Shown here one piece after another: positions 6,909 to 64,000 of a DNA stretch of 64,000 bases; position 1 is the stretch's first letter; each line of letters opens with the position of its first letter. A program made the translations under genes and the position numbers. Source of the DNA: Mariniflexile fucanivorans (GTDB taxonomy: Bacteria > Bacteroidota > Bacteroidia > Flavobacteriales > Flavobacteriaceae); contig NZ_SLUP01000001.1 in NCBI RefSeq assembly GCF_004341235.1, forward strand, positions 186,001 to 250,000, in the 5' to 3' direction. The notes below the pieces were generated by a model, which was not told the origin of the DNA, did not search any database, and was given only the letters and a program-made list of their open reading frames with translations.

Positions 6909-8087
6909 ATGAAGCCAGATTTATTTGAAGCACCAGATTATTACCAACTTGACGAATTACTTTCCGAAGAGCATAAATTAGTTCGGAATGCTACTAGAGC
7001 TTGGGTAAAACGCGAAATCTCTCCTATTATTGAAGACTGCGCCCAAAAAGCAGAATTCCCAACGCAGATTATTCATGGTTTGGCAGAAATTGGTGCTTTT
7101 GGCTCTTACATTCCTGTTGCATATGGTGGTGCTGGTTTAGACCAAATTAGTTATGGTTTAATTATGCAGGAAATTGAACGCGGCGATTCTGGCATTCGAA
7201 GTACAGCATCTGTACAATCTAGCTTAGTTATGTACCCCATTTGGAAATATGGCACCGAAGCACAACGCCAAAAATACCTGCATAAATTAGCAAGTGGCGA
7301 ATGGATGGGATGCTTTGGATTAACAGAACCCGACCACGGTAGCAACCCAGGCGGCATGGTAACCAACTTTAAAGATATGGGCGACCACTACCTTTTAAAC
7401 GGTGCTAAAATGTGGATAAGCAATGCGCCTTTTGCGCAAGTGGCTGTTGTTTGGGCAAAGGATGAAACAGGGCGGATACATGGCTTATTGGTTGAACGTG
7501 GTATGAAAGGGTTTTCTACACCCGAAACCCATAATAAATGGTCGCTTCGTGCATCGGCCACAGGCGAACTTATTTTTGATAATGTAAAAGTGCCTAAAGA
7601 AAATTTATTGCCTAATAAATCTGGATTGGGCGCACCACTTGGATGTTTAGATTCAGCGCGCTATGGCATAGCTTGGGGCGCTATTGGTGCTGCCATGGAT
7701 TGTTACGATACGGCCCTTAGGTATAGTAAAGAACGCTTGCAATTTGGCAAACCTATTGGACAGTTTCAGCTGCAACAAAAAAAATTAGCTGAAATGATTA
7801 CTGAAATCACCAAAGCTCAACTTCTAACTTGGCGACTTGGTGTTTTACGAAATGAAAACAAAGCAACATCGGCGCAAATATCGATGGCAAAACGTAATAA
7901 TGTGGATATGGCTATAACTATTGCTCGCGAAGCACGACAAATACTTGGCGGCATGGGTATAACCGGTGAATACTCCATCATGCGCCATTCCATGAACCTT
8001 GAAAGTGTGATCACTTATGAAGGAACGCACGACATTCACTTACTCATTACAGGTCTGGACATTACGGGCTTAAGCGCTTTTAATTAA
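6909..8087 (+). CDS. gcdH: glutaryl-CoA dehydrogenase (acyl-CoA dehydrogenase family)
   Basis: 392 residues from the ATG at 6909 (a TTG just before it is not needed). This FAD enzyme oxidises and decarboxylates glutaryl-CoA to crotonyl-CoA in lysine/tryptophan breakdown. The N-terminal helical domain is followed by the FAD/substrate segment GCFGLTEPDHGSNPGGM and KMWISNAPFAQVAVVWAK. The catalytic glutamate is E371 in TYEGTHDIH. The near-C-terminal LGGMGITGEYSIMRH and the overall length match GcdH better than short-chain acyl-CoA dehydrogenases. Electrons would go to ETF rather than to ferredoxin. Confidence 0.88.
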   Translation: MKPDLFEAPDYYQLDELLSEEHKLVRNATRAWVKREISPIIEDCAQKAEFPTQIIHGLAEIGAFGSYIPVAYGGAGLDQISYGLIMQEIERGDSGIRSTASVQSSLVMYPIWKYGTEAQRQKYLHKLASGEWMGCFGLTEPDHGSNPGGMVTNFKDMGDHYLLNGAKMWISNAPFAQVAVVWAKDETGRIHGLLVERGMKGFSTPETHNKWSLRASATGELIFDNVKVPKENLLPNKSGLGAPLGCLDSARYGIAWGAIGAAMDCYDTALRYSKERLQFGKPIGQFQLQQKKLAEMITEITKAQLLTWRLGVLRNENKATSAQISMAKRNNVDMAITIAREARQILGGMGITGEYSIMRHSMNLESVITYEGTHDIHLLITGLDITGLSAFN

Positions 8088-8174
8088 AAAAATAAGAAGA
8101 AGGCTATTTTTACAAAAAAAATCAAATGCTTTAATTTCTTTATTCATATTTTAGATGTCGTAAAAATATTAGCA

Positions 8175-8217
8175 TGACAAATGTCATCTTTATTAAAATT
8201 TTTAGACATTAGTTTTG
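8175..8217 (+). promoter_or_regulatory. Crp/Fnr-like operator and -7 box upstream of the 1160-residue protein
   Basis: TGACAAATGTCA at 8175-8186 is a perfect palindrome, extending to ATGACAAATGTCAT. A perfect -7 element TAGTTTTG follows at 8210-8217, 29.5 bp from the operator centre. The same geometry occurs before rseC-rnf, korA/fdx and nifJ. The predicted transcription start is near 8222, leaving a leader of about 57 nt. Confidence 0.65.
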
Positions 8218-8278
8218 AGACGTTTATTTCTAACTAATAATACTATTTAACCTTTTATTTGAATACATAATCGATTTT

Positions 8279-11200
8279 ATGATGGAAAACAAAATTAAAA
8301 TGACGAACGATACTATTATACAAACCCGAAAAGATACTGTTCAATATATAAATTTGCAATTAGCCTCATTGGGGCAACCTCTTTTTCAAGATAAGGACGA
8401 TGATGATGAAAAATTTTGTAATCCGAAGCTTCAACAATTAACGAGTGCTTTTACTAAAGGTTTTAAAGAAAAATCACGTTTATTATCAAAATATTTGTCT
8501 CCCGCAGATACCAGAATTCAAAATTTCTTGAATGATTATTTAAAAGATGTTGAATTTAATAAATCGTATAATATTCCTAACGACACCTTAATTTTAAACC
8601 AAAAAGGTCATGCCAGAGAAATTAGTTTACCTCCTAATGGCACTTCGTTTAAAAGTGACGATATTGTTTCCTATAGAATAAAACAAGGTATTCTAAATAA
8701 CCCAATAAACGATAAAAGAACTACAAAAGGTACGTTCCATATTGTTGAAAGCAGCCTGCCAGTGCCATTGGATAAAAAAGAAGTGCCAAAAATAGCGTTT
8801 GCTCACTTTTTACATGCGGCGTTTAACCCATCGGATGCCTTAAAAACGTTACCGTTTACTGCAAACCAAAAAGAGCAGGCAAAAGTAATAGTCTCTTTAT
8901 TATTGCGCCCTACAGTATGCCCTGAGGTAAAAGGTGTGCTTCCTAAAAAAAGTATGGAAGTTCGTTTTTTTGCTCCTGGAAGCTTAGTGAGCAATTTGGA
9001 TTTTGTTGAATCTATTTTTGGTAATGCCGGCGACCCAAACCTTGTACATAATGATGCTGCACTAGACACAGAACATTGGACAGGCCATACGGGCTGCATT
9101 ATTTTAGCACCACATTTAAAAACACTTAAGAAAAAAGATGTGGGCCTACCACATTGGGACCAGGCTACCGAGCGTCAAAAAAATGACGGTATGTGCTGGA
9201 AAAATGAAGATGAAATTTACAATGATGGTGGCGCCTTTAAGGTAACCTGTAGAGATGATCGCGGTGTGGTTGTTACTATTATTGCCGACAATTATTTTGG
9301 TTATTCTAAAAAAGAAATAAAAACTCAAATTAGCTATTCTGCCAATTTATTTGGTTTGGTGGAAGAAGAACATTCTGGTGGTGCCATTGCGTATCCAAGA
9401 GGTGTTATGGGCGATATTGTAGATGGTAATGGGTTTTCACATAGATATGGAAACAAATTTTCTTTTGAAGATGTTAAAACATTGTTAGGCAAACGAATAG
9501 ATGTTAAACCAGGAAACTATGCTATCGATAAAAAATACCCGAATTTAATTTACATTCCTGAAAATGCTTACATCAACACCAATACAAACAGCATTACTTG
9601 GACGTATAACAACAAAGAACAAAAATTAATTTTATCACCCAATAAAACCTACATACACCCTACAGGGAATAAGTTTAAATTAGAGAAACACAAAGCTATT
9701 TCTTTATGGCGTATTGTAAATACATCGCCTGAAGGTATATTTTGCCATAAACCTTGTACGGTTTCGGGTGGCGGAAAATCTGAAATATCTAAATCAATGC
9801 TAAACGCTATTACTTATAGCACATTTAATGTTTTAAATATTGATGAAGATTTTAAGAAAGCTGATGAAATTATTGAATACGATTATTCAAAACGTTGGAA
9901 AGAATACGACCCTACTCTACCTCCTTCTGAAGCTTTTTTAAGTCCGAAAAGAACTTTAGGTTCTGCTGTTCGATTATTACAACCTTTGGATGCATATAGC
10001 GATGAATACAACAAATTTGTAAAAAACATTCCAGTTCATATTCGATCTTTAGTATTATTTGTAAAACGATTATACCGACAAGATCACGATACTTTAAATT
10101 GGAAAGAATGCGTGTCTGTAGACATTATAAATGGTCAAAAAGGAACAGGACTTAATTATTTTAACAACCCAGTGGTTGGTAGTTATGTGCGTATTGGCTT
10201 TAATCAAGAAGGCCGTTGGTTATTAAATAAATTAAGATCCGATTTTTCGGCAAGTCAGAAAATACAAATGGAGGATGATATTTCCGCTTCTATCACCTTG
10301 CCTAGAAATCAATTTAAAAACTTAAATCCAGAGTTAAAAAACGGAAGTTTTAAGGTTGTGGCAAACTGCGAAAGCTATTTGTTTCAACGTCCAGATGAAG
10401 CCATTGTAAGAGGTTATGATGAAGGTGCTGAACGCGATATTGTTACAGACAACACCTTTTTAACCAACTACGAGCTTTTAACCAAAAAGGATGCTATTGA
10501 AATTTATGAAGACACCATTAATTTTGACAAATACACGCAACCCGTTAAAGACCTCATTATCAGTATTGTTAATAGTCCAAAAGAAGAAGACTATTTCTGT
10601 TTGCCTTCACACACTCGAATTGTAGATGGCGAACCAACCAAAAACCCAAGATATTTAGAAAAAAATATTTTTATTGATGAAACAGAGGCCAGTTATTTAG
10701 GTGAAATTGGTGTTCGTTTGTATAGAAAAATTAAATCTGAAGACCCTGTAATTCATGTGGTGAATGCTGTTTTACCAGGACGACGAAATAATCCTGTTGA
10801 TAAAAAAGCAGGCATCCGTCCGTTAGCGGTTTACAATCCAATTCACTACCAAGAAGCACCAGAATTGTTTATGGATTTTATTTGTAGCCTTACAGGTAAA
10901 TCGCCATCAACAACAGGTGCAGGATCAGAAGGCGCTTTAACCAAAGGTCCTTTCAACATGCTAACCCCAACAACCGATTTAAATAATGCGTTACTTTCCC
11001 ATATTTTAACAGACTCCAACGCCTTTAGTACCGCTGCAGGGTATGTGGGGGCTGAAAATAAAGTGGACCACGACATCAGTTTGTTAATTCCTGAAATTTG
11101 GGCACGTTTAGAAGAAAAAAACCGCGATCCTAAATTACTTATCGAAGATGGTTCACTTGAAAAAATTGAAGACTTTGAATATAAGGGCCAAAAAGTGTTG

Positions 11201-11761
11201 GCAAGTCGTTTAGGTTACAGAATAACCAGCAGGTTCTCATTGAGATGTTTGAACAAATTATTTGATGAACCAACAGCTGTTTTTAATGAACACATGTTAA
11301 AACCAGAGTTACAAGGCATGGAAGATTATGTGGATGGTATTGCCAACATAGTGGAAGCGCAACAAAAAGTAGCCCTTCGTTATTTTGAAGATGGTAGTAT
11401 TGAATCTGCCATTCCGCCTTTAAAAATATTGTTACATATTATGGCATATGGTACCTATGAAGGCAAAGAAATTAGCAACCCAGAATTGAGACAGTATTTT
11501 GAACGCGATTACATTATTAACAGTGATTGGTATAAAGACCGTTTGAAATTAAAACAAGAAAAAGATGTACGTTTCTACGATTCTCAAATTTCGTATTTAG
11601 AAGCATTTATCAACAACCCTAATAATGTTGATTTAGTTTCTGAAATGAAAATTAAAGACCGATTAAAATCTGTTAAAAAATTATATACTGAAGCAAAATC
11701 TGAAGCTTATTTAGATAGTTTAGTCGGTACCATAGGTGCAGACCCATTGTTCAGAAAATAA
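8279..11761 (+). CDS. 1160-residue uncharacterised protein; candidate pyrophosphate-type PEP carboxykinase
   Basis: A very large soluble protein with no signal peptide or membrane segment. SGGGKSEISKS around K500 resembles a P-loop, although the residue at the first glycine position of Walker A is Thr. Other conserved-looking blocks are FAPGSLVSNLDF, EHWTGHTGCIILAPH (about 260-273) and SLTGKSPSTTGAGSEGAL (about 868-885). From memory, PPi-dependent PEP carboxykinases of Propionibacterium and Entamoeba are proteins of about 1150 residues unlike the ATP/GTP enzymes; the size and the pckA-like GGGKS motif fit. If so it would interconvert oxaloacetate + PPi with PEP + Pi + CO2. I could not compare sequences, so the assignment is tentative. 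It is monocistronic, with an operator upstream and a terminator downstream. pckA (42904-44520) also exists in this genome. Confidence 0.5.
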   Translation: MMENKIKMTNDTIIQTRKDTVQYINLQLASLGQPLFQDKDDDDEKFCNPKLQQLTSAFTKGFKEKSRLLSKYLSPADTRIQNFLNDYLKDVEFNKSYNIPNDTLILNQKGHAREISLPPNGTSFKSDDIVSYRIKQGILNNPINDKRTTKGTFHIVESSLPVPLDKKEVPKIAFAHFLHAAFNPSDALKTLPFTANQKEQAKVIVSLLLRPTVCPEVKGVLPKKSMEVRFFAPGSLVSNLDFVESIFGNAGDPNLVHNDAALDTEHWTGHTGCIILAPHLKTLKKKDVGLPHWDQATERQKNDGMCWKNEDEIYNDGGAFKVTCRDDRGVVVTIIADNYFGYSKKEIKTQISYSANLFGLVEEEHSGGAIAYPRGVMGDIVDGNGFSHRYGNKFSFEDVKTLLGKRIDVKPGNYAIDKKYPNLIYIPENAYINTNTNSITWTYNNKEQKLILSPNKTYIHPTGNKFKLEKHKAISLWRIVNTSPEGIFCHKPCTVSGGGKSEISKSMLNAITYSTFNVLNIDEDFKKADEIIEYDYSKRWKEYDPTLPPSEAFLSPKRTLGSAVRLLQPLDAYSDEYNKFVKNIPVHIRSLVLFVKRLYRQDHDTLNWKECVSVDIINGQKGTGLNYFNNPVVGSYVRIGFNQEGRWLLNKLRSDFSASQKIQMEDDISASITLPRNQFKNLNPELKNGSFKVVANCESYLFQRPDEAIVRGYDEGAERDIVTDNTFLTNYELLTKKDAIEIYEDTINFDKYTQPVKDLIISIVNSPKEEDYFCLPSHTRIVDGEPTKNPRYLEKNIFIDETEASYLGEIGVRLYRKIKSEDPVIHVVNAVLPGRRNNPVDKKAGIRPLAVYNPIHYQEAPELFMDFICSLTGKSPSTTGAGSEGALTKGPFNMLTPTTDLNNALLSHILTDSNAFSTAAGYVGAENKVDHDISLLIPEIWARLEEKNRDPKLLIEDGSLEKIEDFEYKGQKVLASRLGYRITSRFSLRCLNKLFDEPTAVFNEHMLKPELQGMEDYVDGIANIVEAQQKVALRYFEDGSIESAIPPLKILLHIMAYGTYEGKEISNPELRQYFERDYIINSDWYKDRLKLKQEKDVRFYDSQISYLEAFINNPNNVDLVSEMKIKDRLKSVKKLYTEAKSEAYLDSLVGTIGADPLFRK

Positions 11762-11780
11762 TTAAAAATAATGATATTAA

Positions 11781-11812
11781 AAAATGCTTCTCAAAATTGG
11801 GAAGCATTTTTT
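11781..11812 (+). terminator. terminator of the 1160-residue gene
   Basis: A 10-bp perfect stem AAAATGCTTC/GAAGCATTTT with a 10-nt loop ends in TTTTTT, starting 20 bp after the stop. Confidence 0.8.
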
Positions 11813-11867
11813 GTATACAACCTACAAATGAAAAAATTCGTATATTTCGGTAAAAGCCATTATTGCC

Positions 11868-12620
11868 ATGAAAATTCATCTATTAATATGTTGTTTTATC
11901 CTAAATTTAAACTGTAATACAGACAAGCCAATTTTGGAAGAAACAGAAATAACCGATACAGAAACTCCAAAAGAAATCATAGAAGAGGTAGAAAACACAC
12001 CTAACCCTCAAAAAAAATACAAAATACTTGCTTTAGGAGATAGCTACACTATTGGGCAAAGTGTATGCGAAACCTGTAGATTTCCAGAACAATTAAAAAG
12101 CAAATTAGAAAACAACATAGCAAATAGTGAAATATCCTTGGATGTTATCGCTCAAACAGGTTGGACTACTACCAACCTGCAAACCGCCATTAACAGCAAT
12201 AATCCTTCAAATGACTTTGATTTGGTAACTCTTCTAATAGGTGTCAATAATCAATACCAAAACAAGGCATTTAGCATTTATGAAGCAGAATTTCCACAAC
12301 TTTTAAGTAAAGCCATAGCTCTGGCAAAAGGAAAGTCCAGCAAGGTTATTGTCATTTCCATTCCAGATTATGCCTACACACCTTTTGGGCAATCATCATC
12401 AAACTCTGGAACCATTTCACAACAATTAGATCTTTATAATAATTTCGCTGAAACGTATTCAAAAGAAAACAATGTTACGTTCATTAATATAACCGACATT
12501 ACTCGAAATGGCCTATCTAACCCCGAGTTAGTTGCTTCAGATGGATTACATCCCTCGCAACTAGCATATTCCAAATTTGTAGAACGTTTACTTCCTTTAG
12601 CTATTGAAAAGTTAGACTAA
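11868..12620 (+). CDS. SGNH/GDSL-type esterase lipoprotein
   Basis: 250 residues. A lipoprotein signal ends at Cys16 (MKIHLLICCFILNLNC), followed by a Thr/Glu-rich linker. The SGNH hydrolase fold is shown by the nucleophile block LALGDSYTIG (about 52-61), LLIGVNNQY with the oxyanion Asn, and the C-terminal catalytic Asp/His pair in SDGLHPS. It is probably an extracytoplasmic lipase/esterase or acetyl-esterase with unknown substrate. It lies 26 bp before the metallophosphoesterase, so the two are probably co-transcribed. Confidence 0.85.
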   Translation: MKIHLLICCFILNLNCNTDKPILEETEITDTETPKEIIEEVENTPNPQKKYKILALGDSYTIGQSVCETCRFPEQLKSKLENNIANSEISLDVIAQTGWTTTNLQTAINSNNPSNDFDLVTLLIGVNNQYQNKAFSIYEAEFPQLLSKAIALAKGKSSKVIVISIPDYAYTPFGQSSSNSGTISQQLDLYNNFAETYSKENNVTFINITDITRNGLSNPELVASDGLHPSQLAYSKFVERLLPLAIEKLD

Positions 12621-61477: not shown

Positions 61478-61609
61478 AGCTGTTTAAAAAGTGTAATTCT
61501 GTGTCATATTGAGCTTGTCGAAATATTTCAACTTATTCATGATCAATATTGGTTTCGACAAGCTCAACCTGACAAAGCAAATACAAAAACACTTTTTAGA
61601 CAGCCTCTT
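61478..61609. repeat. MITE-like inverted-repeat element, copy 2
   Basis: Near-identical to the reverse complement of the element at 46607-46743 along most of its length, including TGTCATATTGAGC and the central TTTCGACAAGCTCAACCTGA. Its ends have decayed (AGCTGTTTAAAAAGTGT against the exact AGGCTGTCTAAAAAGTGT complement). It ends 8 bp from the stop of the gene remnant below. Confidence 0.7.
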
Positions 61610-61965: not shown

Positions 61966-64000
61966 TTATCCTACAATATTAACAATTTTCCCAGGAACAA
62001 TAATCACTTTTTTAGGAGTTCTTCCCGCCAATTGCTCTTGGGTTTTTTCGTTAGCCATCACCGCTTCTTCAATTTGTTTTGCATCAAAATCCATAGGTAA
62101 TTCTAGCGTGAAACGCATTTTTCCGTTGAAAGAAATCGGGTAGTTTTTGCTGCTTTCTACTAAATGACTCGCATCAAAAATTGGGAAAGCTGCTGTTGAA
62201 ATCGATTCGTTATGCCCTAATTGGCTCCATAATTCTTCAGCAATATGTGGTGCGTACGGCGATAATAAAACCAATAAAGGTTCTAAAATGTCTTTAGACG
62301 TGCATTTTTGAGCCGTCAATTCATTTACCGCAATCATAAAAGTTGATACCGAAGTATTGAATGAGAAATTCTCGATATCTTCTTGCACTTTTTTAATGGT
62401 TTTATGGAGGGTTTTTAAGGCCTCCCCTAACCCCTCCGAAGGAGGGGAAACGGCCCCACCTAACCTCCCCGAAGGGGAGGAACTCGTTACGTAAAAAGCT
62501 CCGTTTTCTCCTTGGTGATATAACTTCCATAATTTTTTCAGAAAATTGTGAACACCTGTAATACCTGCGGTATTCCAAGGTTTGTATTGTTCTAAAGGCC
62601 CTAAAAACATTTCGTATAAACGTAAACTATCGGCGCCATAATCAATACAAATTTGGTCTGGATTGACGACGTTGTATTTGGATTTGGACATTTTTTCGAC
62701 TTCGCGTTTTACTTTGAATGTTCCATCATCTTCACTAATGAATTTTGCGTTAGAATAATATTCTCGCCAATTTTTGAATTGTTCAATATTTAATTCATCT
62801 GAAGAGTTTACAAAAGAAACATCAACATGCGTTGGGTTTAACTGCATTGATATTTCTCCTCCCAAACTAATTTCAGAATCAGGAAAAATTTCATTTAAAG
62901 TATTCAAGAAAAAGTCTTTAGTCTTTTTAGTTTCTTCAGCATTACCTTCCTTAATTTTTTCATATTTAGATTTTGTTATGAAAAAATACGGCATCTTAGG
63001 ATCCAAAATATCAAAACCTTTGTCAGGGTTCGACATAACCATCCAAGAAAACCTATAAACAAAAGCACTAGTCCCCAAAATCATTCCTTGGTTAATCAAC
63101 TTTTTAGCATATTCGTCAACAGGTACCACACCTTTATCGAACAAGAATTTTTGCCAAAAACGAGAATACAATAAATGCCCTGTGGCGTGCTCGCTTCCGC
63201 CAATGTATAAATCGACATCTTTCCAATAATCCAAAGCTTCTTTGCTCGCAAATGCTTCGGTATTACCCGGATCCATGTAACGGTTAAAATACCACGAACT
63301 TCCTGCCCACCCTGGCATAGTGTTTAACTCTAAAGCCCCACCTAACCTCCCCGAAGGGGAGGAACTCTCAAACGCTTCTTTTGATACTATCTTAGCATCA
63401 TCACCATACTGCAACCAATGCCATTCTTTGGCGTTTCCTAATGGTGGTTCACCCGTTTCTGTTGGTAAATATTTTTCAACTTCAGGCAATTCTATAGGCA
63501 GAAATTTTTTATCTATCATCTGCGGCATACCAGTCTCATCATAATACACTGGGAATGGCTCGCCCCAATAACGTTGGCGACTAAAAACTGCATCGCGCAA
63601 ACGGTAATTGGTTTTTCCTTCGCCTTGACCTAGTTTTTCTAGTTCTTGAATGGCTTTTTTTGTGGCTTCTTTATAATCTAAACCATTTAAAAAATCCGAA
63701 TTTTTCAAAACAAAACCAGCCTTTTCAGTAAAAGCCTCAGTTTCTATAAGGTTTAAAGAGTCCTCAGTTCCCCCTTTGGGGGTTAAGGGGCTAAAAATAT
63801 TTGGAATTGGGATGTTGAAATGTTTTGCAAAATCATAATCACGTTGGTCGCCACATGGCACGGACATCACCGCCCCTGTTCCGTAACCTGCCAAAACGTA
63901 ATCGCCAATCCAAACCGGAATGGGTTGTTTTGTGAACGGATGCTCTGCATAGGCACCTGTAAATGCACCCGAAATGGTTTTTACATCGGCCATTCTATCG
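61966..64000 (-). CDS. leuS: leucyl-tRNA synthetase (5' part beyond window), with in-frame palindromic insertions
   Basis: About 678 C-terminal residues are visible, the N-terminus being off the window. The CP1 editing domain is marked by GTGAVMSVPCGDQRDYDFA, the catalytic core by VFSRQRYWGEPFPVYY and NTMPGWAGSSWYFNRYMDP, and the KMSKS loop by EKMSKSKYNVV. A C-terminal anticodon-binding domain is present. Three repeat-derived segments, S-P-S-G-R-L-G-G-A types and L-T-P-K-G-G, lie in frame. The conserved motifs seem intact, so the enzyme is presumably active, as it must be. Confidence 0.96.
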   Translation of the reverse strand, partial: DRMADVKTISGAFTGAYAEHPFTKQPIPVWIGDYVLAGYGTGAVMSVPCGDQRDYDFAKHFNIPIPNIFSPLTPKGGTEDSLNLIETEAFTEKAGFVLKNSDFLNGLDYKEATKKAIQELEKLGQGEGKTNYRLRDAVFSRQRYWGEPFPVYYDETGMPQMIDKKFLPIELPEVEKYLPTETGEPPLGNAKEWHWLQYGDDAKIVSKEAFESSSPSGRLGGALELNTMPGWAGSSWYFNRYMDPGNTEAFASKEALDYWKDVDLYIGGSEHATGHLLYSRFWQKFLFDKGVVPVDEYAKKLINQGMILGTSAFVYRFSWMVMSNPDKGFDILDPKMPYFFITKSKYEKIKEGNAEETKKTKDFFLNTLNEIFPDSEISLGGEISMQLNPTHVDVSFVNSSDELNIEQFKNWREYYSNAKFISEDDGTFKVKREVEKMSKSKYNVVNPDQICIDYGADSLRLYEMFLGPLEQYKPWNTAGITGVHNFLKKLWKLYHQGENGAFYVTSSSPSGRLGGAVSPPSEGLGEALKTLHKTIKKVQEDIENFSFNTSVSTFMIAVNELTAQKCTSKDILEPLLVLLSPYAPHIAEELWSQLGHNESISTAAFPIFDASHLVESSKNYPISFNGKMRFTLELPMDFDAKQIEEAVMANEKTQEQLAGRTPKKVIIVPGKIVNIVG
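62421..62486. repeat. double palindromic insertion in leuS
   Basis: Two palindromes in tandem, CCCCTCCGAAGGAGGGG (62431-62447) and CCTCCCCGAAGGGGAGG (62464-62480). The 33-bp stretch 62453-62485 is identical to 63335-63367. The encoded leuS peptide is roughly S-S-S-P-S-G-R-L-G-G-A then V-S-P-P-S-E-G-L-G-E-A. Confidence 0.8.
63335..63367. repeat. palindromic insertion in leuS, second site
   Basis: Exactly 33 bp, centred on CCTCCCCGAAGGGGAGG. It is identical to 62453-62485 and translated in the same frame as S-S-S-P-S-G-R-L-G-G-A, directly before the ELNTMPGWAGSSW core segment. Confidence 0.8.
63763..63795. repeat. palindromic insertion in leuS, third site
   Basis: CCCCC TTT GGGGG (63770-63782) with flanks TCCTCAGTTC and TTAAGGGGCT. 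In the frame of leuS it reads approximately F-S-P-L-T-P-K-G-G-T-E-D-S, inside the CP1 editing domain between IPIPNI and NLIETEAF. A different member of the same class of repeats. Confidence 0.65.

Follow-up and report, generated by a model that had tools for sequence, protein, structure and literature searches.

In-frame palindromes in a flavobacterial leuS gene match the ends of putative mobile elements that carry a DUF559 nuclease

A stretch of 64,000 nucleotides from the genome of Mariniflexile fucanivorans (contig NZ_SLUP01000001.1, positions 186,001 to 250,000), here termed the window, ends within leuS, the gene for leucyl-tRNA synthetase (LeuRS), and this part of the gene carries small palindromes that are translated in frame. 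By sequence, the palindromes match the ends of an insert that encodes a predicted endonuclease of the DUF559 family, both in the same gene and in recG. They are probably the end-repeats of small mobile elements that carry a DUF559 nuclease; the nuclease would move repeats whose ends are built like a triplex, and one of its lineages appears to sit unspliced in essential genes. The association and the anatomy of this element family are strongly supported, and a nuclease that moves the ends is the simplest reading of the comparative data. By its LeuRS, the host groups with Flavobacteriaceae, the nearest relative being Hyunsoonleella. The relevant features are listed by window position; bit scores are those of model R1, with which the elements were searched.

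61966..64000, minus strand: leuS (leucyl-tRNA synthetase), 3′ part, from the open reading frame, TIGR00396 and Pfam matches of the whole gene
62420..62452, minus strand: triplex-type palindromic element, reads SPPSEGLGEA in leuS (model R1, 48.1 bits)
62453..62485, minus strand: triplex-type palindromic element, in tandem with that at 62420..62452, reads SSPSGRLGGA (47.8 bits)
63335..63367, minus strand: triplex-type palindromic element, reads SSPSGRLGGA directly before the conserved LELNTMPGW (50.9 bits)
63766..63792, plus strand: weaker element in opposite orientation, reads SPLTPKGGT in leuS (model R1, 22.5 bits)

An earlier note, made from the letters alone, had described a 33 bp unit that is identical at 62453-62485 and 63335-63367, and this is confirmed on the minus strand. 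The second palindrome that it described, at 62431-62447, is present as well and is contained in a tandem 73% copy of the unit at 62420-62452. A third related site also exists, in the form of a weaker copy of opposite orientation that is placed at 63766-63792. The window part of leuS has four in-frame palindromes of 27-33 bp. As had been claimed, the leuS frame is preserved: it is open across all palindromes and on to the stop codon, and the full frame reaches a window-equivalent position of about 65493. The whole-gene translation retains HVGH and KMSKS, and leuS is the only copy in the genome, which rules out a dead duplicate. TIGR00396 matches the window part of the gene in two stretches and scores below the cut-off because the window holds only part of leuS. 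With up to three mismatches, CCTCCCCTTCGGGGAGG has four matches in the window (two sites, both strands), compared with none in 100 dinucleotide shuffles; together with 50 model hits in the genome, this excludes a chance origin of the palindromes. Alignment with orthologues that lack the palindrome peptides bears out the expectation that these do not share the residues concerned; as judged from the alignments, their loops differ and are mostly shorter. REPs (repetitive extragenic palindromes) are reported inside tRNA synthetase genes of other bacteria (PMC3733652), and in-frame palindromes in such genes are therefore not unique to this leuS.

The same loops of LeuRS and of IcmF carry other in-frame peptides elsewhere (leuS loci L102, L105, L149, L120, L137 and L077; icmF loci L224-L228 and L233). 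The peptide types HSERNEES, HAEPVEAS, LKQVQHD and IASETKQS presumably represent other palindromic repeat families, and the two loops may act as hot spots where unrelated repeats of several kinds accumulate. Outside leuS, the window displays an intergenic inverted repeat at 61502-61574, with 22-nt arms that are 91% complementary, which is of a type distinct from the GGGGAGG family. Four Rfam hits under the gathering score are found at 61500-61580.

The inserted material in leuS (locus L015) had been described as palindromes. These are real, but the gene also holds a whole nuclease domain beyond the window. This DUF559 domain of ∼105 residues is contained in an in-frame insert of roughly 150 residues, located immediately ahead of the VFTTRPDTIFG motif that is conserved in the editing domain. 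The Pfam match (PF04480, E = 2.2e-34) lies between synthetase domains, and a relative of the domain in the Protein Data Bank is 3hrl (E = 4e-16). The left and right junctions of the insert carry the palindromes CTTCCCCGGAGGGGAAG and CCCCCTTCGGGGGTTAGGGGG, respectively. No splicing domain is detected by Pfam in six DUF559 host proteins. A known RNA family or an intron was considered and rejected: Rfam finds no match over the window palindromes, nor any match or intron over positions 7900-11900 of the leuS locus, the region of the DUF559 insert. PF04480 has four matches in the M. fucanivorans genome, in leuS, in recG, in a stand-alone gene of 147 codons and, weakly, in a Vsr-like gene. The stand-alone gene (L042, G000:C2:95017-98322) lies between inverted palindromes and adjoins an apparent type I restriction subunit gene.

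The recG gene of M. fucanivorans is an 866-codon frame with a DUF559 insert in frame, bounded at both ends by inverted elements of the leuS-palindrome kind (405 bp from start to start). In all five congeners searched the corresponding loop is empty and RecG has 707 codons. Among 30 RecG loci from 31 genomes, two display the insert together with a frame of at least 850 codons (M. fucanivorans, G000, and G006); the frame of G408 has 783 codons. Sites at which the congeners are unanimous differ in M. fucanivorans in 8 of 43 cases close to the insert (within 30 nt) and in 22 of 1267 cases elsewhere. When each congener is taken in turn as the focal row, no such divergence peak is found. On the left side, the three differences agree with genera that bear the insert (0.90) rather than with empty ones (0.19). 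The divergent tract is read here as a short stretch that might have arrived with the insert, a reading that rests on eight sites.

Dispersed copies are spread through the 4.74 Mb genome, where model R1 gives 50 hits at E ≤ 1 and 34 at E ≤ 0.001. Twelve neighbouring pairs, several partners of which are weak hits, have opposite orientations with the outer arms outward; in eleven of these the starts are separated by 76-202 bp, and the twelfth pair is the recG insert. The exception is leuS, which has a tandem pair of the same orientation and one inward pair 383 bp apart. A genome search for the unit inside other genes, as the earlier note had envisaged, detects in-frame interior copies not only in leuS but in valS, icmF and two further long frames (L206 and L222). 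Other copies are intergenic or lie close to the start of hemW, hisI or trpF (these names, valS and icmF, and the HsdR-like names given below, were read by eye from translations). The icmF locus, which contributes one of the twelve pairs, was rejected as a clean empty/filled pair, as its alignment displays two separate insertions and apparently decayed versions in congeners, and not one 235 bp insert.

The ends have a characteristic anatomy. Nineteen copies from the M. fucanivorans genome align over 34 columns with a consensus of 33 bp; they represent 24 matches minus L033, L034 and L039 (taken as chance), L023 (identical) and L032 (other arm length). All 133 cells of the stem are paired, and they include 20 double changes. 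An outer arm mirrors the purine arm at 129 of 133 positions in one fixed register, A or T being allowed opposite A, and none of 2000 shuffles reaches this value (largest 119). The flanks of DUF559 copies display the same features: 158 of 198 have the stem (99 copies, drawn from Flavobacteriaceae as well as from further families of the phylum), and of 136 asymmetric flanks the mirror reading scores better in 87 and the direct reading in 10, with 39 ties, in a comparison that treats both readings alike. As flanks share ancestry, it is the distinct arm types that carry the mirror argument. Perfect mirrors are found in 39 of 89 distinct arm pairs (33 distinct purine arms) and in 3 of 1740 mismatched pairings, a control that favours the observed value somewhat, the outer arms having been linker-optimised for their own arm and not for mismatched ones. 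The arm-pair test used flanks with a best linker of 2-5 nt, which are 135 of the 158 that bear a stem, of 198 in all. Opposite an arm A, the 89 types have 104 A, 94 T and 14 other bases. An inverted-repeat score of raw left versus right flanks exceeds the best of 100 shuffles in 30 of 82 copies when inverted and in 12 of 82 when direct; this weak test is superseded by the arm-level tests. Judged from these patterns, the ends have the predicted geometry of a purine-motif intramolecular triplex.

DUF559 is widespread in the family. PF04480 matches are found in 188 of 397 Flavobacteriaceae genomes, and among the matches listed at least 60 open frames have 346 codons or more. The 82 distinct copies (identical domains counted once; L040 omitted as the same locus as L015) are located in leuS (35), recG (11), metH (11, at two sites), ileS (2), hisD (2, C-terminal), at the start of hemD (9) or in stand-alone genes (12), proportions that do not equal population frequencies, the second round of loci having been chosen mostly for long open frames. 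For each of leuS, recG, metH, ileS, hisD and hemD, one example is confirmed by Pfam. Seven tree rows first labelled 'other' were assigned to hemD by flanking sequence, with a Pfam check of L049 only. In a tree of the domain, which has few columns and many weak forks, the 61 copies in frame in leuS, recG, metH, ileS and hisD form one clade (support 98/95), and the hemD copies and most stand-alone copies form other clades. Host changes are nested within the in-frame clade, with the hisD copies inside those of leuS and the ileS copies with those of recG. In the metH gene of G215, the copies at the two sites group together (88/69). This single gene (L191, G215:C1:745700-751300) has two sister DUF559 domains, as if one had been copied from the other; a clean second-site insertion was sought via a closer relative and dropped, as the genus has no further genome. 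The strict triplex motif is present on at least one side of 45 of the 61 in-frame copies, 8 of the 9 hemD copies and 5 of the 12 stand-alone copies. The nearest strict motifs of the in-frame copies point outward in 39 of 41 left-hand and 31 of 33 right-hand cases.

A phylum-wide draw gives PF04480 matches in 222 of 395 genomes, and many of the frames listed exceed 1000 codons. The hosts read in other families of the phylum are metH (L301 and L307) and apparent type I restriction HsdR-like subunits with the domain in frame (L298, L300 and L305); the loci from these families (L291-L307) stand outside the DUF559 tree.

Eight conserved motif columns are retained in 58-61 of the 61 in-frame copies; which of these columns are catalytic is assumed here from Vsr. 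The median ratio of nonsynonymous to synonymous substitution rates (dN/dS) is 0.22 for DUF559 (298 pairs) and 0.10 for the adjoining host sequence (269 pairs), with many dS values near saturation. The rates indicate that purifying selection acts on the nuclease even where it forms part of a host protein. Two leuS copies, L121 and L136, are relics that have lost several motif columns and are without the conserved Asp and His, and are still in frame. The domain can, it appears, decay in place.

At the genome level, elements are found in 98 of 397 Flavobacteriaceae genomes: in 78 of 142 with strong DUF559 (E < 1e-20, a threshold set by the analyst) and in 20 of 255 without. Among the matches listed, five or more element hits occur in 34 of the 142 and 4 of the 255.

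Triplex motifs are also found beside DUF559 outside the phylum. In 16 plasmid loci from three other phyla, taken for taxonomic spread from 43 records with DUF559 (most human-associated ones omitted), the motif is present within 400 bp in nine, compared with 1 of 352 control windows of equal size; the controls come from eight of the nine positive replicons, the ninth being only 33 kb. The positive plasmids belong to Sphingomonas, Azospirillum lipoferum, Sinorhizobium, Photobacterium, Deinococcus (three) and Synechocystis (two). Mononucleotide shuffles give an expectation of 0.05. As background, one strict motif is found in 400 kb of the eight positive replicons and four in 432 kb beside leuS in Flavobacteriaceae. 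In Escherichia coli K-12, a strict motif is located 167 bp beyond the end of the DUF559 gene ycjD and is the only one in its 20 kb region. A query of ycjD plus motif is at least 80% covered at one place in 3364 of 5426 E. coli genomes. An apparent decayed motif copy lies at the ycjD stop codon (L309:11205-11425), with the intact triplex motif 167 bp on. Model R1 gives no match in the ycjD region, whereas the strict motif scan does; the model is thought to miss the E. coli motif since arm lengths differ. PF04480 gave no match in the E. coli control genome, although ycjD of K-12 is annotated as DUF559. In some loci the neighbours of DUF559 are a BREX gene or apparent restriction genes.

At leuS the domain is patchy. 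Thirteen of 81 leuS genes have the DUF559 domain (two of them relics) and 16 have a palindrome peptide before LELNTMPGW. On the leuS tree, presence of the domain changes nine times, at least eight by well-supported branches, and presence of the peptide seven times. Distances of domain and host are weakly correlated (r 0.24 upstream and 0.31 downstream, versus 0.53 between the host halves; 34 copies). The pair L155 and L160 has close hosts (0.11) and distant domains (0.48). For metH the correlations are intermediate (0.58 and 0.23; 9 copies). The recurrence of discordant domains at one leuS site and the short divergent tract in recG are, at most, indirect signs of possible homing, in which the nuclease would cut the empty allele.

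A mechanism can be proposed. A complete copy consists of an end-repeat, an open frame for a DUF559 (Vsr-like) endonuclease and an inverted end-repeat; copies of the in-frame form are read through by the host frame without a stop. Single ends, and short copies whose two ends start 76-202 bp from each other, would be non-autonomous derivatives. Each end has a pyrimidine arm, a loop of ∼3 nt and the purine arm that pairs with it, followed after a linker of ∼3 nt by an outer arm that is the mirror image of the purine arm, and one single strand of it could fold into a purine-motif triplex. The nuclease probably recognises the folded end and cuts the DNA, and new copies would then enter other loci. 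Copies already present might reach the same site in other species through recombination with an occupied allele, in the manner of homing genes. Where a copy lands in a loop of an essential protein, it may be tolerated without splicing because the ends and the nuclease share one readable frame and encode linkers rich in Pro, Ser and Gly. A broader hypothesis has about an even chance of being correct: DUF559 proteins would be the missing mobility enzymes of intrastrand-triplex repeats across phyla, would recognise three-stranded ends on exposed single strands, and in one Bacteroidota lineage would have become an unspliced, homing-like domain of essential enzymes.

Other explanations address the role of the nuclease. 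The repeats could be plain selfish palindromes of the Rickettsia kind that are moved by some other enzyme, with DUF559 as captured cargo that has no role in movement. The 50 model hits (E ≤ 1) far exceed the three DUF559 copies and one Vsr-like gene of the genome, and 20 of 98 element-bearing genomes have no strong DUF559, both as this explanation would have it; but the motif is again found next to DUF559 in three other phyla, as well as in several clades of the domain, and the nuclease residues are conserved under apparent purifying selection inside host proteins, so that captured cargo is considered unlikely. Conserved residues and low dN/dS would equally be expected if the inserted nuclease were a useful domain, kept by selection for defence or for protection of the host allele, with the palindromes as flexible linkers, and the BREX or apparent restriction genes among its neighbours are in keeping with this. 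The domain is, however, patchy at leuS and occurs in several unrelated hosts, single ends exist without it, and a linker needs no mirror covariation of DNA arms; selection for a useful domain is judged improbable.

Further alternatives address the ends. The mirror arm might be the signature of a G-quadruplex or of protein binding and not a triplex strand. There are several G-runs in the outer and inner purine arms, and competition from quadruplexes is discussed for the E. coli motif by Holder et al. (2015; PMC4666352). Yet a quadruplex needs no complementary 5′ arm, nor a mirror register in which A faces A or T, and nuclear magnetic resonance (NMR) on the E. coli motif favoured the triplex (PMC4666352); this possibility, too, is rated as unlikely. 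The layout of inverted palindrome pairs around a nuclease gene is also that of a REP system whose ends are recognised by a Y1 tyrosine transposase (REP-associated tyrosine transposase, RAYT). PF01797 has no match in the M. fucanivorans genome, the sole genome of the family searched, versus matches in 5 of 14 control genomes, and the alignment consensus has no GTAG or CGTC tag. Such an origin is disfavoured and would be very surprising.

Several observations weigh against the proposal that a DUF559 nuclease moves triplex-ended elements into essential genes. All evidence for it is comparative, and no movement or cutting has been observed; no target-site duplication was seen, in work that included no systematic search for one. 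With respect to the ends, seven of the 12 stand-alone Flavobacteriaceae copies and seven of the 16 plasmid loci have no strict motif nearby, only one of 11 metH copies, which mostly have G-only arms, passes the strict scan, and orientation at the plasmid loci is mixed (left, 6 outward and 2 inward; right, 4 outward and 3 inward). For the E. coli motif, Holder et al. describe no support for a stable triplex in vivo (PMC4666352). The nine copies fused to the start of hemD fall outside the in-frame clade. The genome-level association is partly built in, because model hits include the ends of DUF559 copies, and is uncorrected for relatedness; the 20 genomes that have elements without strong DUF559 need loss or another enzyme. 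As to spread, the five differences to the right of the recG insert favour neither insert-bearing (0.46) nor empty genera (0.49), and domain and host distances in recG agree well (r 0.88 and 0.59; 11 copies), which fits vertical descent. Presence of the domain is somewhat clustered on the leuS tree (nine changes; shuffled mean 12.2; 2 of 500 as low). Lastly, leuS alleles with and without elements differ in neighbouring residues too, so exchange of gene segments must have contributed and the insertion history is blurred by allele exchange; the leuS palindromes do not appear to be clean single insertions.

If the proposal is correct, a long-known class of bacterial repeats gains a candidate mobility enzyme. 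With a nuclease gene beside or bracketed by triplex motifs in four phyla, including E. coli K-12, the question of how these repeats spread becomes testable. A mobile element that enters essential genes without splicing would provide housekeeping enzymes with inserted domains by natural means, and the same 30 bases would encode both a DNA structure and a peptide linker.

The earlier note had likened the repeats to the Rickettsia palindromic elements (RPEs), which are 105-146 bp in length and described as Rickettsia-specific (PMC2229807). The parallel holds in that palindromes are translated in frame in a live essential gene and, more generally, in conserved genes (leuS, valS, icmF and recG) whose proteins tolerate them. 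It fails in that the repeats of this Flavobacteriaceae host are not stand-alone: they are 27-38 bp ends linked to a nuclease and match the ends of the DUF559 insert. REPs are defined by a GTAG or CGTC tag at the palindrome end, and some are found inside open reading frames, including those of tRNA synthetases (PMC3733652). REPs, their paired form (REPINs) and RAYTs resemble the present system in small palindromes, inverted pairs and a nuclease gene among them; here, in contrast, the nuclease is DUF559/Vsr-like and not Y1, the ends have a mirror arm, and there is a stop-free in-frame form. Inteins and homing endonuclease genes place an endonuclease frame at recurrent positions of essential genes, with a patchy distribution between species. 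The DUF559 frame does likewise, but no splicing domain or intron was found in the proteins and region searched, the end-repeats are genome-wide and the domain probably stays in the protein. Membership of the DUF559 family is indicated by the profile match and the conserved motif residues, and nuclease activity is predicted. Searches of the open-access literature for accounts of DUF559 elements, of the repeat strings, of palindromes in frame in these bacteria and of transposases linked to triplex repeats give the component facts and, among the papers listed, none that joins them; most subscription literature lay outside the search. We know of no kind of element that joins a DUF559 nuclease, triplex ends and unspliced residence in frame.

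The closest likeness in build is to the triplex motif (TM) of bacteria, also termed PIT or BoxC, which has a second loop of TTA or CCG and is known from over 260 genomes (Holder et al., 2015; PMC4666352). Its triplex was demonstrated in vitro by circular dichroism and NMR; the E. coli sites are described as always intergenic, with no mobility function found nearby (PMC4666352). Like TM, the repeats consist of a pyrimidine arm, a short loop, a purine arm, a second loop and a mirror purine arm, and inverted pairs occur. The purine arm complements the pyrimidine arm (133 of 133 cells), and the third arm mirrors it after a short second loop, as G*G.C, A*A.T and T*A.T. The E. coli copies differ in being intergenic, which describes those copies and is not part of the structural definition; here, the repeats adjoin or bracket an endonuclease gene and are also read in frame within essential genes. 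By build, the leuS repeats, likened by the earlier note to the RPEs, belong instead to the class of intrastrand-triplex repeats.

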